In this document: piece after piece, positions 12,485 through 29,059 of the stretch
Layout of the letters: every line of letters starts with the position of its first letter
How positions within the stretch are numbered: position 1 is the first letter of the stretch
Origin: Lachnospiraceae bacterium
Lineage (GTDB): Bacteria; Bacillota; Clostridia; Lachnospirales; Lachnospiraceae
Length of the DNA stretch: 32,960 nt
Assembly: GCA_017962825.1 (NCBI GenBank)
Contig: JAGCUO010000085.1
Span: 1 to 32,960 of the forward strand
Direction: 5' to 3'
Notes under the pieces: model-generated
The model's input: the letters and a program-made list of their open reading frames with translations, nothing else
Database searches by the model: none
What the model was told of the DNA's origin: nothing
Translations under genes and position numbers: made by a program

Positions 12485-12657
12485 TAATAGAGCAGGGTCC
12501 TGCGAGTGAAACTCGCGGGACCCTGTTCTATTATGCAGAAGCGAGATTGAACCCTGAGGGTTCAATCTCGGAACACGCATGCGTGTTCCTCGGTCGGTTC
12601 GGCGGGAAAAAGGTCCACCGGACCTTTTTCTGCTTCCGCCTCACCCCTTCTTCTGCA
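12477..12657 (+). repeat. tRNA-3'-end-derived hairpin cluster
   Basis: Four hairpins stand back to back. A: 12477-12507 against 12511-12541, 31 pairs with two wobbles, including the tRNA's last 8 bases. B: 12542-12554 against 12558-12570, 13 perfect pairs, carrying TTGAACCC/GGGTTCAA as in a T-arm. C: the palindrome at 12571-12588. D: 12607-12616 against 12620-12629, 10 perfect pairs ending in five T and flanked by GGCGG/CCGCC; it may be the terminator. The 13-base end of the tRNA, CCCTTCTTCTGCA (12472-12484), recurs in direct orientation at 12645-12657. An open frame of 114 codons crosses this region and the tRNA but looks non-coding. Confidence 0.8.
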
Positions 12658-12761
12658 CGGAGGGGGAGTGGCCAAAAATATGATAAAATAAAAAAGAATT
12701 GTGACTTTCGTGTGATTTATGCCGTCTATTAGGGTAAGAGACCCAAAAGGAGGGCAATATT

Positions 12762-13193
12762 ATGAAAATTACCAGAGCAGAAGGATATAAGAAACCCAAT
12801 TATGCGGTGGCTGTAGCTGCTACGATGGCGATGGTTACGATAACAGGATGCGGCATCGGAGGTCCGGATCTTGAAGGTGCTACAACCCTGGCCAATCCTG
12901 AAGAAGAGATTCAGTATGCCGGAGATATCTCGGTCGAGCAGATGAATAATGTGATCGATTATGATGGCGGATTGGAGATGTATACAGAGCCTGACGAAGA
13001 GATACAGCTTGAGGGAGAAATTGAGCCGTATATCGATGAATCTTTGGAAGATGAAGATAATAAGTGGGATGAAGCTTATGCTGAGCCCCTGGATGATGAG
13101 CTGGTACTTGAAGGAGGCGTTACGCTCTGTGAGCCTGAAGGTGCCCCCGAACCTCCCATGCTTGAAGGCTCGATAGAACTCAGCGAACCCTGA
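12762..13193 (+). CDS. Predicted lipoprotein with LEG repeats, likely radical SAM substrate
   Basis: A 143-residue acidic protein I cannot place in a named family. Residues 1-30 look like a lipoprotein signal: basic start (YKK), hydrophobic stretch YAVAVAATMAMVTI, lipobox ITGC with Cys30. The rest is rich in Glu, Asp, Pro and Gly and repeats a loose motif about five times: PDLEGATTL, IQYAGDISV, IQLEGEIEP, LVLEGGVTL, PMLEGSIEL, often followed by an EP or NP pair. One other cysteine (Cys123) lies in the fourth repeat. A good AAGGAGGG ribosome binding site precedes the ATG. The radical SAM/SPASM gene starts 27 bases later. The arrangement suggests a repetitive peptide substrate modified by its neighbour, then lipid-anchored outside; this is inference. 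Confidence 0.8.
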   Translation: MKITRAEGYKKPNYAVAVAATMAMVTITGCGIGGPDLEGATTLANPEEEIQYAGDISVEQMNNVIDYDGGLEMYTEPDEEIQLEGEIEPYIDESLEDEDNKWDEAYAEPLDDELVLEGGVTLCEPEGAPEPPMLEGSIELSEP

Positions 13194-13220
13194 ATACTTT
13201 AGTCCAATCCGGAGTAAAAC

Positions 13221-14282
13221 ATGAATCTTACCTTACATCTTACAGAAAACTGCAATATGGACTGTGCCTATTGTCTTCGCGAGAAATGTCCGAAGGATAT
13301 GTCCGAAGAGGTTCTTTATAAGGCATGTGATCTTGCTTTTGCAAAGGGTCTGAGAGCGGGACTGTGTTTTTTCGGCGGTGAGCCGCTTCTAAAAAAGGAT
13401 CTTATCTATAAGGCTCTTGATTACTGTGAAGAAAAGGCTAAGCAGACGGGCATGAGATTTGACTGTAAGATGACTACAAACGGCTCTCTCCTGGATGAGG
13501 AGTTTATTACAAGAGCCGTAAAAGCCAGGATGGGCATAGGTCTTTCTTTTGACGGAACGGCGCAGGATGTCTGCAGGGTATTTGTGGGCGGAAGGCCTAC
13601 GTCATCCGTTGTTGAGGAGAAGGCAAAGCTTTTGCTTAAGTACTTGCCGGATTCGACGGCACTGGCTACCATCGCACCTCAGGCGGTTCCATATTATGCG
13701 GAGTCCGTAAGATATCTTCATGAGCTTGGGTTTAAGCGTATTTCAATGGTCCTCGCATATGGCAAAAAGGTATGCTGGAACGATGAGGATATTGAACTGT
13801 TAAGGGAGCAGCTTGAAAAGACCTGTGAGTATGTCAAGGAGCTTTTCATAAAGGGCGATAAGATATTTGTGGGACCGATTTATTCCAAGATAGGTGAATG
13901 CATCAAGGATAAGAACCCTGCGGAGAAATGTCATCTGGGAGTAAGACAGACTCCGGTTACTCCTGAAGGAGAGCTGTATCCCTGTACTTCTTTTATAGGA
14001 GATCCCGATTACCTGCTGGGTAATGTGTTCGACGGGATAAATGAAGCTAAGCTGACGGAGATTGCAAAGAAAGCTTCAACACCCGCTACATGCGTCGGCT
14101 GTGATCTCGTAAAGCGATGTACCAATTCCTGCGGATGCGCCAACAGGATGAACACGGGTAAGGAGAATGAAATCTCACCTCTTCAGTGTACATATGAGAG
14201 AATGCTTATAGAGATAAGCGATGCTCTGGGAGAGGAGCTCTATAATATGGATCCTGCAAGATTTGCCAAAGAATTCGCGTAA
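13221..14282 (+). CDS. Radical SAM/SPASM peptide-maturase-like enzyme
   Basis: A 353-residue iron-sulfur enzyme. The radical SAM cluster motif CxxxCxxC is Cys11, Cys15 and Cys18 (ENCNMDCAYC), very near the N-terminus as in sulfatase- and peptide-maturing members. FFGGEP is the SAM-binding GGE motif. The C-terminus has a full SPASM pattern: Cx12Gx4C in CHLGVRQ...GELYPC, then Cx2Cx5Cx3C in CVGCDLVKRCTNSC, and a last Cys in PLQC; it binds extra 4Fe-4S clusters. Such proteins cross-link or otherwise modify ribosomal peptides or proteins. No sulfatase is in the window, and the repeat lipoprotein 27 bases upstream is the obvious substrate candidate. A GGAG site sits about 7 bases before the ATG. 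The exact reaction is unknown. Confidence 0.88.
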   Translation: MNLTLHLTENCNMDCAYCLREKCPKDMSEEVLYKACDLAFAKGLRAGLCFFGGEPLLKKDLIYKALDYCEEKAKQTGMRFDCKMTTNGSLLDEEFITRAVKARMGIGLSFDGTAQDVCRVFVGGRPTSSVVEEKAKLLLKYLPDSTALATIAPQAVPYYAESVRYLHELGFKRISMVLAYGKKVCWNDEDIELLREQLEKTCEYVKELFIKGDKIFVGPIYSKIGECIKDKNPAEKCHLGVRQTPVTPEGELYPCTSFIGDPDYLLGNVFDGINEAKLTEIAKKASTPATCVGCDLVKRCTNSCGCANRMNTGKENEISPLQCTYERMLIEISDALGEELYNMDPARFAKEFA

Positions 14283-14321
14283 GAGGCTTTTATTATATTA
14301 ATTTCATATATCCTATGAGGG

Positions 14322-14365
14322 AAGCTCCGCACATATGAGTATGTAGCGGAGCTTTTAAATTTTTT
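14322..14365 (+). terminator. Rho-independent terminator after radical SAM gene
   Basis: AAGCTCCGC (14322-14330) and GCGGAGCTT (14346-14354) form a perfect 9-pair stem followed by a T-rich tract. It ends the lipoprotein-radical SAM unit. Confidence 0.85.
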
Positions 14366-25218: not shown

Positions 25219-27018
25219 ATGAGATTTTCCGACGAATTCCTGGAGGAAGTCAAAGCCCGTAACGACATTCTTGATGTTGTGGGCAGCTACATTCCTCTGA
25301 AGAAAAAAGGGAATAATTACTGGGGACTTTGTCCGTTCCATAACGAGAAGACTCCGTCGTTTTCCGTTTACCCGCCCAAGCAGATGTTCCATTGCTTCGG
25401 ATGCGGCGAAGGCGGTAATGCCATCACTTTCGTAATGAAGTATGAAAATGTTTCTTTTGCGGAAGCGGTCAAGATACTGGCCGAAAGAGCCGGTATGGAG
25501 GTTAAGGGGACGGAGGAGTCCGAGGAAGAAAAGGCCAGACGATCCAAGGCCGATATCCTGAGACAGATAAATTCCGATGCGGCTCTGTATTTTATGAACA
25601 ATCTCTACACGCCTCACGGTGAGAAGGGATTGAATTATTTCAAAGACAGAGGGCTTTCCGATGATACGATCAGACATTTCGGTCTGGGATTTGCGGGCAA
25701 TAACGGAAGGGAAGTCATAGAAGCTCTGAGGAAAAAAGGCTATTCGGACGAGATGCTCGTAGCTTCGGGAATAGCGAGCAATTCCGAGAAATACGGCATG
25801 AGCTGTTCTTTCTTCGGAAGAGTGATGTTCCCGATAATAAGCGGCGATAAGAAGGTCATCGGATTCGGCGGAAGAGTTCTTGGAAGCGGAGAACCAAAGT
25901 ACCTGAATACTTCCGAAACGATGGTATTCGATAAGCGTAGAAATCTCTACGGATATAATTTTGCAAAGCGCGCGAGAAAAGATTACTACATTCTCTGCGA
26001 AGGCTATATGGATGTAATATCCATGCACCAGGCCGGGTTTGATACGGCGGTGGCGTCCCTGGGAACGGCATTTACCGAAGAGCAGGCGGCCATGATCAAA
26101 AGAGACCGTAAAGAAGTCTATCTGGCTTATGACATGGATGAAGCGGGAGAAAAAGCGGCTCTCAAGGCAGTCAGGATGCTCACTGCGGTGGGTATCACGC
26201 CCAGAAGGATCAGCTTAAAACCCTGCAAGGATCCGGATGAATTCCTGAACCGGTACGGAACCGAGGAATTTGCTAAGCGCCTCGAAAACGCCGAGAACGG
26301 ATTCCTCTATATCGAAGACAGGGTCAGGGACAGATATAACCTGTCGGATCCGGAAGAGAAATATAAATGCGAGCGTGAGATCGTAGAGAACCTGTGGATG
26401 TTTGCAGGTGACGAAGTGAGGATGAACACATACGCTCCGGAACTTGCAAAGCGATACGGCTACACCGCATCCGAGATCTCAAAGCTTCTGGAAGAAACAA
26501 GGCCGCGTGAATATGCGAGAAAAGACGACAGAAATTTTGCCACGGCTTATTCACCTCCGAAGAAACCTTCCGGCAGGAAAAAAGAAAACGAATGGACGCA
26601 TGCCGAAAGTTCTCTTTTGACCTGGATGACCGATGAACCGGATATATATAAGGTGGTCAAGAGATATTTGAAGCCCGATGATTTCTCACCGGGACCCTGC
26701 AGGACGATAGCGGGGCTTTCATTCGAAATGCTTGATGCGGGTGAGTTCAGTAACGAAAAACTCATGGCGGGGCTTGAGAGTGAAGAACTTATAAACGATG
26801 CGACGGGAATACTTCAGAATTCTGCGCCGGACATCGATACGGCTGAAAAGCGTATGGCGATGCTGAAGGATCTGATAATAAGTGTGATGGAGAGAAAGTG
26901 CGAACTTTTGACCCAAAGTGACGATCCGGAAAAAGAAATGAAGGTTTTTACCACAAGAATCGAAATTGATAAATTAAAATCCGGAAAGCTCCGGATGAGT
27001 GACGAGGAGGAGTCCTGA
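25219..27018 (+). CDS. dnaG: DNA primase DnaG
   Basis: A 599-residue primase that makes RNA primers at the replication fork. The CHC2 zinc finger (residues 38-64) shows [13 protein letters not shown] and [12 protein letters not shown]. The catalytic TOPRIM core has [15 protein letters not shown] and [13 protein letters not shown] linker rich in Pro/Lys (about 430-450) precedes the C-terminal helicase-interaction domain. Length is normal. It starts 3 bases after dgt and its stop is 1 base before the rpoD start, so dgt, dnaG and rpoD are one operon (the macromolecular synthesis operon). Confidence 0.97.
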
Positions 27019-27019
27019 A

Positions 27020-29059
27020 ATGGCTAAGAAAGAAGATAAGAACACCAAAAAGAACGCTAAGGCAGCTTCTAAGCCTGCTAAGGCGGTTAAACCCGCGGCT
27101 AAGGCTGCAGCCAAGTCTGCCAAGGCAGCAAAGCCCGCAGCAAAGGCTCCTGCAAAGAAGGCTGCAAAACCTGCGGCTAAAAATACCAAGCCCGTAAAGG
27201 CAGCAAAGCCTGTTGCAAAGACTACGGCAAAGAAGGCAGCAAAGCCCGCAGCAAAGGCGCCTGCAAAGAAGGTATCAAAGCCCGTAGCAAAAGCCCCTGC
27301 AAAGAAGGCAGCAAAACCTGTTGCAAAGGCCCCTGCAAAGAAGGTATCAAAGCCCGTAGCAAAAGCCCCTGCAAAGAAGACGGCAAAACCTGTTGCAAAG
27401 GCCCCTGCAAAGAAGACGGCAAAGCCCGCAGCAAAGGCTCCTGCAAAGAAGACGGCAAAGCCTGTTGCTAAGGCTCCCGCAAAGAAGACAGCAAAGCCCG
27501 TTGCAAAGGCCCCTGCAAAGAAGACGGCAAAGCCCGCAGCAAAAGCTTCCGCAAAGAAGGTTGTAAAGCCCGCAGCAAAGCCTGTTGCAAAGGCCCCTGC
27601 TAAGAAGGCAGCGAAGCCAGCTGTTAAACCTGCCGTAAAGCCTGCGAAGAATACAAAGCCTGTTTCCAAGCAGCCGGCTAAACCCGCAAAGGCAGTTAAG
27701 CCTTCCAAGGCAGACATCAAAGAGAATGATAAGAACAAGAAGAGCGCGGTAAAACCCGCTCCCGAAAAAGCATCAAAGAAAGATAAGACGACCGAAGTAA
27801 AGGCCGCCTCTGCTAAGAGTGCGGATAAGACTTCGACGTCTAAGAAAGACAGAGTAACCAAGACCAAGGATATGAGTAATGTTGTTAATGCCGCACCCGA
27901 GACACAGGAAGCAGAAGGTGCGTTGGACGAAAAGATCACAGAGGTAGTGAATAACCTCATTAAGAAAGCAAAGAAGGGTACAAAGCCCGTAGAACTTGAT
28001 TATTCCATGATCGTTGATTCCGTAATGAAGGTAACCGACGATGATGAGATGGTAGACAAAGTAATCGAAATGCTCGGAAAGAACGGAGTTGATGTTCTTC
28101 CCATGGAGCCCATCGGTTCCGAAATCGATGATTTTGAACTTGGAGAGCCCAGTGCTGATGATCTTGCCGAGGCAGAGGATGAAGGTGTTGAGAAGATCGA
28201 CATCGATTCACTCGTAGAAGGCGTAAGCATTGAAGATCCCGTTCGTATGTATCTTAAAGAGATCGGTAAGGTACCCCTTCTTACCGCCGAGGAAGAGATC
28301 GAACTTGCAAAGCGTATGGAGAAGGGCGATGAGGAAGCTAAGAATGCACTTGCCGAAGCAAACCTCAGACTCGTTGTTTCCATCGCCAAGAGATATGTAG
28401 GAAGAGGAATGCTTTTCCTCGATCTTATCCAGGAAGGAAACCTCGGACTTATCAAGGCTGTTGAGAAGTTTGATTACCGTAAAGGTTATAAGTTCTCCAC
28501 CTATGCTACATGGTGGATCAGACAGGCTATCACCAGAGCTATCGCCGATCAGGCACGTACCATCAGAATTCCCGTACACATGGTTGAGACCATCAACAAG
28601 CTCATCCGTGTAAGCCGTCAGCTTCTTCAGACTCTCGGAAGAGAGCCCAGCCCCGAAGAGATCGCTGCAGAGATGAACATCCCCGAAGAGAAGGTTCGCG
28701 AGATCTTAAAGATCTCTCAGGAGCCCGTATCTCTCGAGACTCCCATCGGTGAAGAGGAAGATTCACATCTCGGAGATTTCATTGAGGATGATAATGTTCC
28801 CGCACCTGCAGAGGCAGCAACACAGATGCTTTTAAGAGAGCAGCTTGATAAGGTCCTTGATTCACTTACCGACAGAGAAAAGAAAGTCTTAAGACTTCGT
28901 TTCGGTCTCGATGACGGAAGACAGCGTACTCTTGAAGAGGTCGGAAAAGAATTCAACGTAACCCGTGAAAGAATCAGACAGATCGAAGCTAAGGCACTTC
29001 GTAAACTTCGTCATCCCAGCCGTTCAAAACAGCTCAAGGATTATCTGGAGGATACATGA
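27020..29059 (+). CDS. rpoD: Primary sigma factor RpoD with H1-like tail
   Basis: A 679-residue housekeeping sigma-70, nearly twice the usual Firmicute length. Residues 1-300 are an added N-terminal arm; about 10-235 are Lys/Ala/Pro-rich with a 12-residue unit APAKKxxKPVAK repeated about ten times, like the tail of histone H1. Region 1.1 follows ([16 protein letters not shown]), then region 1.2 ([16 protein letters not shown]), region 2 ([31 protein letters not shown]), region 3 and region 4 ([32 protein letters not shown]). The core is fully conserved. GAGGAGG and an ATG one base after the dnaG stop fix the start. The arm could bind DNA or RNA without sequence preference. Actinobacterial SigA proteins have a comparable Lys/Ala-rich arm. 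Confidence 0.97.
27130..27650 (+). repeat. 36-base imperfect tandem repeats in rpoD
   Basis: Units of about 36 bases, for example around GCCCCTGCAAAGAAGACGG, encode APAKKxxKPVAK. Third-position changes between units show they have diverged while keeping the protein pattern. The opposite strand is open by chance over this stretch. Such repeats can gain or lose units by slippage. Confidence 0.85.

Follow-up and report, generated by a model that had tools for sequence, protein, structure and literature searches.

The window analysed here, a 32,960-nucleotide stretch of DNA from a Lachnospiraceae bacterium (contig C185, positions 1-32960, of a genome that is 81% complete, 4.7% contaminated and in 204 contigs), carries a two-gene unit in which the reading frame of a lipoprotein-like precursor is followed, after a gap of 27 bases, by that of a radical SAM/SPASM enzyme and then by a hairpin terminator. 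The features of the unit are collected in Table 1.

Table 1. Features of the two-gene unit (positions in the window)
Feature	Position	Strand	Basis
Predicted ECF-sigma-type promoter TGTGAC-N17-CGTCTA	12700..12728	+	kept in 11/11 genus genomes
Ribosome-binding site GGAGGG	12749..12754	+	read off sequence
Precursor lipoprotein, 143 aa	12762..13193	+	ORF; acidic core; dN/dS 0.21-0.29
Conserved N-terminal stretch MKITRAEGYKKPNYA, which the enzyme may recognise as a leader	12762..12806	+	12 genus sequences
Signal-peptide hydrophobic stretch and lipobox to Cys30	12807..12851	+	alignment
Repeat 1, LEGATTLANP	12870..12899	+	
Repeat 2, YAGDISVEQM	12915..12944	+	
Repeat 3, YDGGLEMYTE	12960..12989	+	
Repeat 4, LEGEIEPYID	13008..13037	+	
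Repeat 5, LEGGVTLCEP	13107..13136	+	
Repeat 6, LEGSIELSEP	13161..13190	+	
Radical SAM/SPASM enzyme, 353 aa, begins at radical SAM domain	13221..14282	+	Pfam PF04055 59.8 bits; PDB 5wgg alignment
Radical SAM cluster motif C11xxxC15xxC18	13251..13274	+	invariant in 54 enzymes
SPASM region, seven invariant Cys	13929..14189	+	54 enzymes
Terminator hairpin, then U-rich tail	14321..14355	+	-22 kcal/mol, z -4.0

The precursor, the enzyme and their surroundings

The initial annotation described a 143-residue protein with the lipobox ITGC at Cys30, a single further cysteine, and about five loose LEG repeats. The lipobox is where it was placed, and the pattern, which predicts lipidation, recurs in all 12 genus precursors; the one remaining cysteine is C123. 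From Cys30 on, the 114 residues include 36 Asp and Glu and one Lys or Arg. Repeats are indeed present, but there are six, and their type is [L/Y]-x-G rather than LEG (L37EG, Y52AG, Y67DG, L83EG, L116EG and L134EG, spaced by 15, 15, 16, 33 and 18 residues). Taken alone, the window precursor contains seven [LIVMFYC].G sites against 3.4 in shuffled sequences (28 of 1000 shuffles reach as many), and stricter patterns show no excess over chance in it (293/1000 and 131/1000 shuffles). The annotation had proposed that the repeats be aligned in search of invariant residues. In the alignment of 12 genus precursors conservation is most visible at the N-terminus, at the lipobox and at five glycines of the repeats, with G39, G54, G69, G85 and G118 invariant; because of this conservation we consider the repeats solid despite the modest excess in the single protein. 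The precursor passes none of the NCBIfam cut-offs shown.

The neighbouring enzyme carries the full set of SPASM cysteines that had been ascribed to it: Cys 237, 255, 291, 294, 300, 304 and 323 are all invariant among 54 enzymes. The radical SAM profile (PF04055) scores 59.8 bits, above its cut-off of 29.5, and the SPASM profile (PF13186) scores 18.2, under its cut-off of 21.5. Purifying selection is strong on the enzyme (dN/dS 0.05-0.08) and weaker on the precursor (0.21-0.29), with one of seven comparisons saturated. When the family profile was compared with the PDB, the nearest solved chain was 5wgg (E 3.5e-68, aligned over 5wgg residues 99-445), an entry titled radical SAM domain protein which, like 5why, we take to be the SCIFF maturase CteB. 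Since the alignment starts only at residue 99, the enzyme apparently lacks an N-terminal peptide-binding domain. It shows no RRE-like extension either, so that it can only be proposed to recognise a leader. None of the 25 best NCBIfam families, from 72 matches, exceeded its cut-off for the window enzyme, and the same held for eight relatives.

The terminator that was said to close the pair is found as a stable hairpin (z -4.0), absent from the output of a consensus terminator scanner. Among 32 neighbourhoods, in which ORFs of at least 90 aa were compared and families present in at least three loci reported, the enzyme family occurs at 32 loci and the partner at 15, short or divergent partners escaping this test. 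At 13 of the 32 loci there is an ORF antisense to the enzyme gene, and at five (L023, L026, L096, L106 and the window) there are ABC-type ATPases of mixed kinds and strands; the remaining families are genes common to three or four closely related loci. Within about 4 kb we saw no exporter or peptidase that goes with the pair. A link with the neighbouring GH43 gene was considered and rejected: GH43 is found in 26 of 31 genomes and lies on the contig of the pair only in G000, G001, G015 and G017; in G026, where both GH43 and the pair lie at contig ends, the two may be neighbours. Rfam detected only tRNA near the pair, apart from two microRNA-family matches below the gathering score, which we take for chance.

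Some features of the genome stand apart from the pair. Directly 3' of a tRNA-Leu, at window positions 12486-12680, lies a row of hairpins with four stems of at least eight pairs (z -10.9), found also in L017 and partly in L020, with a similar row after another tRNA-Leu in L021; none was seen in the remaining genus loci, and in the source genome the row matches only itself. It is unlikely to regulate the pair, because other genomes without it keep the promoter box. A truncated second copy of the enzyme (L002, G000:C25:4178-4591; 91% identical over residues 216-353), which lies among different neighbours where a contig ends, may be a paralogue or come from a contaminating strain. At window positions 26999-29059 a Sigma-70-type factor of 686 aa has a long, repetitive, Lys/Ala/Pro-rich N-terminus that resembles histone H1.

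Pairing and partner types

The initial annotation asked whether the precursor always neighbours the SPASM enzyme. In the genus the pairing is tight: of 31 genomes, 11 have a precursor match, the same 11 have a close enzyme (81-100% identical), and the two genes adjoin in ten genus neighbourhoods and in the window. The other enzyme matches in genus genomes are only 31-33% identical. Relative to the window, the enzyme is 81-92% identical and the precursor 40-73%, except at its N-terminus and repeat glycines. In G015 two precursors in a row precede one enzyme; in G016 the enzyme is truncated by a contig end, and a complete second one is encoded on a contig, 150 bases from its start. Among 397 genomes of the family, seven have an enzyme match with E no higher than 1e-45; two belong to the genus and five do not (about 35-41% identical), and all five distant enzymes adjoin a lipoprotein whose N-terminus reads like MKVKTVTRYKNPGYP. 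A search for orphan precursors with profile A1 matched 29 of the 397 genomes; the best match outside the genus (E 5e-7) was an ORF of 481 residues, no enzyme was seen near the matches at 13 loci inspected, and we take those outside the genus for generic lipoprotein signals. The pairing is real, and it is no speciality of the Lachnospiraceae but broader than the initial annotation had it: similar pairs recur in several unrelated phyla.

This wider distribution was seen in a scan of named genomes in which the best 80 of at least 544 enzyme relatives were kept; the best-matching locus, L089, belongs to the MAG "uncultured Lachnospiraceae bacterium RUG13935". Partner classes, assigned by eye from the ORFs beside the enzyme, comprise a related partner at 65 of the 80 loci, 39 of them of a type A and 26 of two other types. 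Type A has hydrophobic-x-G cores (L146, L160 and L168 weakly). In type B (21 loci) most partners combine HGxGxGxxGC with a longer region of conservation; L110 and L118 are truncated, L114 has no N-terminus that could be seen, and L108 and L128 lack the HG stretch. Type C (five loci) has a GTGxPSR-like stretch or something akin. Of the other loci, five have an unrelated small protein without a signal peptide, and at ten no partner was recognised, something else was found, or a contig end intervenes.

A P-x-Y-like segment precedes the signal peptide, within the first 34 residues, in 45 of 53 type A sequences versus one of 13 generic lipoproteins, the latter being those of 28 control loci that fitted a crude rule, some of them doubtful. 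The eight exceptions are L094 and L103, which are still alike, two sequences of L120, L138, and three from Fibrobacter. The segment is also present in all 13 aligned type B partners, where P12 and Y14 are invariant, as is a G-C pair. Several partners, type B above all, lack a lipobox. Three deltaproteobacterial partners (L141, L143, L155) have a lipobox and, ahead of their hydrophobic stretch, RR, which suggests Tat export. Several precursor copies lie beside a single enzyme at L020, L090 and L092. In a quick tree of 56 enzymes (three rows unlabelled; labels A, B, C and outgroup), partner type tracks the enzyme, with five label changes versus 20.2 when shuffled; since three changes are needed for it, type A is not one clade.

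The statistics of the repeat in type A cores should be read with the caution that the patterns were chosen after the sequences had been viewed and that the shuffles ignore relatedness. The strict motif [LIM].G[DE][VIAT] occurs 72 times in the 6433 residues of 53 type A cores, versus 4.3 in shuffles, none of 1000 being as high. It is present in 36 of the 53 proteins, at 11.2 per 1000 residues, versus five of 49 other lipoprotein-like ORFs, at 0.4 per 1000; the 49 come from the enzyme loci analysed, with P-x-Y-near-start ORFs left out, some are doubtful, and one (L135) is really a partner, the inclusion of which biases the comparison against the excess. Among the 13 generic lipoproteins three contain the motif, at 0.7 per 1000 residues. 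The excess stems mostly from the genus (24 vs 1.5) and from Oscillospiraceae-type loci (39 vs 1.9). The 20 type A sequences outside these groups, most of them from other phyla, have the strict motif nine times versus 1.0, in only five proteins, and the loose [LIVMFYC].G 71 times versus 42.3, in all 20. From this contrast hydrophobic-x-G is the wider trait and G-[DE]-[VI] its form in Clostridia, and given the rarity of the strict motif in the distant sequences the type A core may differ in nature from group to group. The consensus of 247 loose sites has V/I at -4, L/Y at -2, the glycine, D/E at +1, V/I at +2 and +4, and proline further on; hydrophobic residues thus alternate around the glycine as in a beta strand with the glycine in mid-strand.

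Some partners deserve separate mention. Type B (L106-L132, e.g. L109:3222-3998 and L121:3180-3998) has a conserved region of about 200 residues and forms a separate class of larger partners for the same enzymes; two examples gave no Pfam match over the cut-off, and the best PDB match to the region (E 0.036) was not convincing. At L148, L154, L158, L161 and L163, enzymes about 29% identical lie beside a small protein without a signal peptide that has a motif like PHxHYxG, possibly another target family. One Bacteroidetes genome, G427, contains both a type B pair (L111) and a pair of the TIGR04133 kind (L169).

A promoter-like box shared with other lipoprotein genes

The sequence TGTGAC-N17-CGTC stands 61-64 bases before the first precursor in all 11 genus genomes that have the pair; it stays constant despite a variable spacer sequence and despite more distal upstream DNA that is not the same from one genome group to the next. 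The second precursor of G015 has no such box. In the source genome there are four exact sites, versus none in a reversed control, and all four precede genes of lipobox proteins, the pattern itself having been derived from the site of the pair; the other three genes encode a YfbK-like von Willebrand protein, a serpin (by Pfam) and a lipoprotein of about 480 aa. In Saccharofermentans and its kin (L090-L093, L095 and L107) GCAACA-N16-TGTAT or TGTTA is found at -55 to -61 instead; this box was not present in the other Oscillospiraceae-type loci tested.

According to the accessible part of one account, typical ECF promoters have the elements AAC and CGT, ECF41 recognises TGTCACA-N16-CGTC, and ECF sigma genes are autoregulated and co-transcribed with an anti-sigma gene (PMC3426412). 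The box of the pair agrees in its CGTC -10 element and fixed spacer of 17, and its -35 element, TGTGAC, is nearer to TGTCACA of ECF41 than to AAC. An ECF-type sigma gene that is followed by the gene of a 289-aa anti-sigma-like protein (L216, reverse complement 1405-2879) has a one-mismatch copy immediately in front of it. Nine other copies, at seven of eight sigma loci, have two mismatches each, and one of this kind (spacer 18) stands directly before the sigma gene of L213; the sigma gene of L214, the third of this group, is found some 2 kb upstream of the box that belongs to the von Willebrand lipoprotein. Upstream of the L216 sigma gene is a lipoprotein that resembles a GH5 cellulase. Judged from these sites, the pair is probably under the control of an ECF sigma factor, and we infer an envelope-stress regulon of lipoproteins that would include it.

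Proposed pathway, alternatives and known systems

We hypothesize that the unit encodes an ECF-controlled, lipid-anchored, RiPP-like protein that is modified in the cytosol by the enzyme paired with it, its signal peptide doubling as the leader, and we regard this reading of the sequences as probable. What the sequences themselves show is the pairing, the conserved N-terminus, the lipobox, the repeats and the promoter-like box. The precursor would be made in the cytosol, where the enzyme would recognise its conserved N-terminal segment (of the type K-x-P-x-Y) and modify the [L/Y]-x-G repeats in the acidic core. The reaction would probably be oxidative and take place at the invariant glycine or beside it, a link or an oxidation per repeat being favored over epimerisation. 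The modified protein would then be exported, Cys30 would be lipidated, and signal peptidase II would cut off residues 1-29; in this way the signal peptide of the lipoprotein would act as RiPP leader too. The product would be a polyanionic peptide with modified repeats, anchored at the cell surface, and our guess at its function is that of a modified surface coat under stress control. As to the chemistry, our first choice would be an oxidative change or a link inside the repeat, followed by epimerisation and then by thioethers at the rare cysteines.

It would be unlikely, in our view, that the enzyme is an epimerase which turns one residue per repeat, such as the Leu or Tyr before the glycine, into its D form with no change of mass. 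Position -2 tolerates L, Y, V, I and C, as backbone chemistry would, hydrophobic residues alternate at -4, -2, +2 and +4, and cysteine is not required; there is also a weak profile overlap, at positions 3-77 only, with the YydG entry, presumably that of an epimerase. However, all seven SPASM cysteines are invariant, and a full set usually accompanies oxidative reactions; moreover, the best-scoring families are, by name, mostly formers of thioethers or other cross-links. These scores would also fit a maturase of the ranthipeptide type, which would form thioethers only at the few core cysteines (C123 here) and leave the repeats as a surface spacer. PapB is the best NCBIfam match (177 bits), other thioether formers come next, the type B partners share an invariant G-C (13 of 13 aligned), and a 232-aa partner from Riflebacteria, upstream of its enzyme (L167), has four CxG repeats with Cys in the place of Leu. 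Yet cysteine other than that of the lipobox is lacking from 22 of 53 type A cores, though the enzyme is present, the precursor L025 being naturally free of it, and the place of the cysteine varies within the genus, which makes this explanation rather improbable.

We give equally little weight to the idea that the lipoprotein is a partner, whether anchor, chaperone or sensor, while the enzyme modifies something else. The long conserved region of type B would suit such a role. Against it, no other gene family is widely common to the 32 neighbourhoods; several precursors per enzyme, as at L020, L090 and L092, fit a substrate, as does divergence outside the N-terminus and the glycines. Finally, a sulfatase-maturing enzyme that lies beside a lipoprotein gene by chance is hardly credible. 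Such enzymes belong to the same superfamily, and one protein in the source genome (81% complete) has a sulfatase-type domain above the cut-off, but it lacks CxPxR. Clustering with these maturases had been named in advance as evidence against the proposed system; the enzyme is instead of the peptide-maturase type, scoring 72.9 bits with TIGR03942 versus a cut-off of 349.45, and the occurrence of both genes in the same 11 of 31 genomes speaks against chance.

If the reading of a cytosol-modified, surface-anchored substrate is true, a large group of radical SAM substrates would be kept on the cell surface and not released, a repeat that needs neither cysteine nor aromatic residues would point to a new peptide chemistry, and radical SAM enzymes would rely on the normal lipoprotein pathway both for export and for removal of the leader. 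A broader proposal, that radical-SAM-made surface lipoproteins form a class across phyla, with the signal peptide (lipoprotein or Tat/Sec) as leader, a new cysteine-independent change once per hydrophobic-x-G repeat, and an envelope-stress ECF sigma factor in control, is put forward tentatively and may well prove too wide, the more so as only five of 20 distant sequences have the strict motif.

The pairing was not found described in a literature search that covered titles and abstract openings, most subscription papers and supplements being beyond its reach. Several known systems resemble it in part. The best-scoring curated family, PapB (NF047865), covers residues 3-317 of the 353 in the window enzyme, with 177.1 bits for this enzyme and 158-220 for eight relatives versus a cut-off of 340. 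PapB joins Cys to Asp or Glu, according to the part of the source available (PMC9413430). Such sites are absent from the 22 of 53 cores that have no cysteine, the window core has one cysteine, and the partner here is a lipoprotein; given the cysteine-free cores, the reactions of the nearest characterised enzymes cannot be transferred to this system. CteB (5wgg/5why), the closest solved sequence, has about 98 extra N-terminal residues of its own and acts on a Cys-rich peptide. The window enzyme scores 123.3 bits with the SCIFF maturase family (TIGR03974; cut-off 425), and we take another enzyme of the genome (L003, 31% identical to it) for the candidate SCIFF maturase. The CXXX-repeat system (TIGR04115) likewise has a related enzyme and, by its name, a repeat-bearing target; the score is 113 bits versus a cut-off of 350, and the Cys-based repeats that the name implies are absent here. 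TIGR04133 pairs of Bacteroidetes share the order of genes, the lipoprotein coming first and the SPASM enzyme immediately behind it in the one example (L169), but the enzyme branch there is 6.8 changes per column long and the lipoprotein has neither [L/Y]-x-G repeats nor a P-x-Y segment; the family is absent from the best 25 of the 72 matches of the window enzyme, and a relative (L055) scores 50.2 bits versus a cut-off of 425.

The closest parallel in pathway is with the DAG-RiPPs made by MNIO enzymes, for which, in the literature found, use of the lipoprotein pathway has been shown. As described in the accessible part of a preprint, their core is modified in the cytosol and then enters the lipoprotein pathway, with evidence from mass spectrometry (PMC12636315); the term "radical SAM" occurs zero times in its main text. 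The likeness lies in this sequence of cytosolic modification and lipoprotein export, which we propose here as well. The differences are the enzyme superfamily and the mode of recognition, which on the MNIO side, in the same part of the preprint, is by a C-terminal motif (PMC12636315), whereas here it would be by the conserved segment at the N-terminus.
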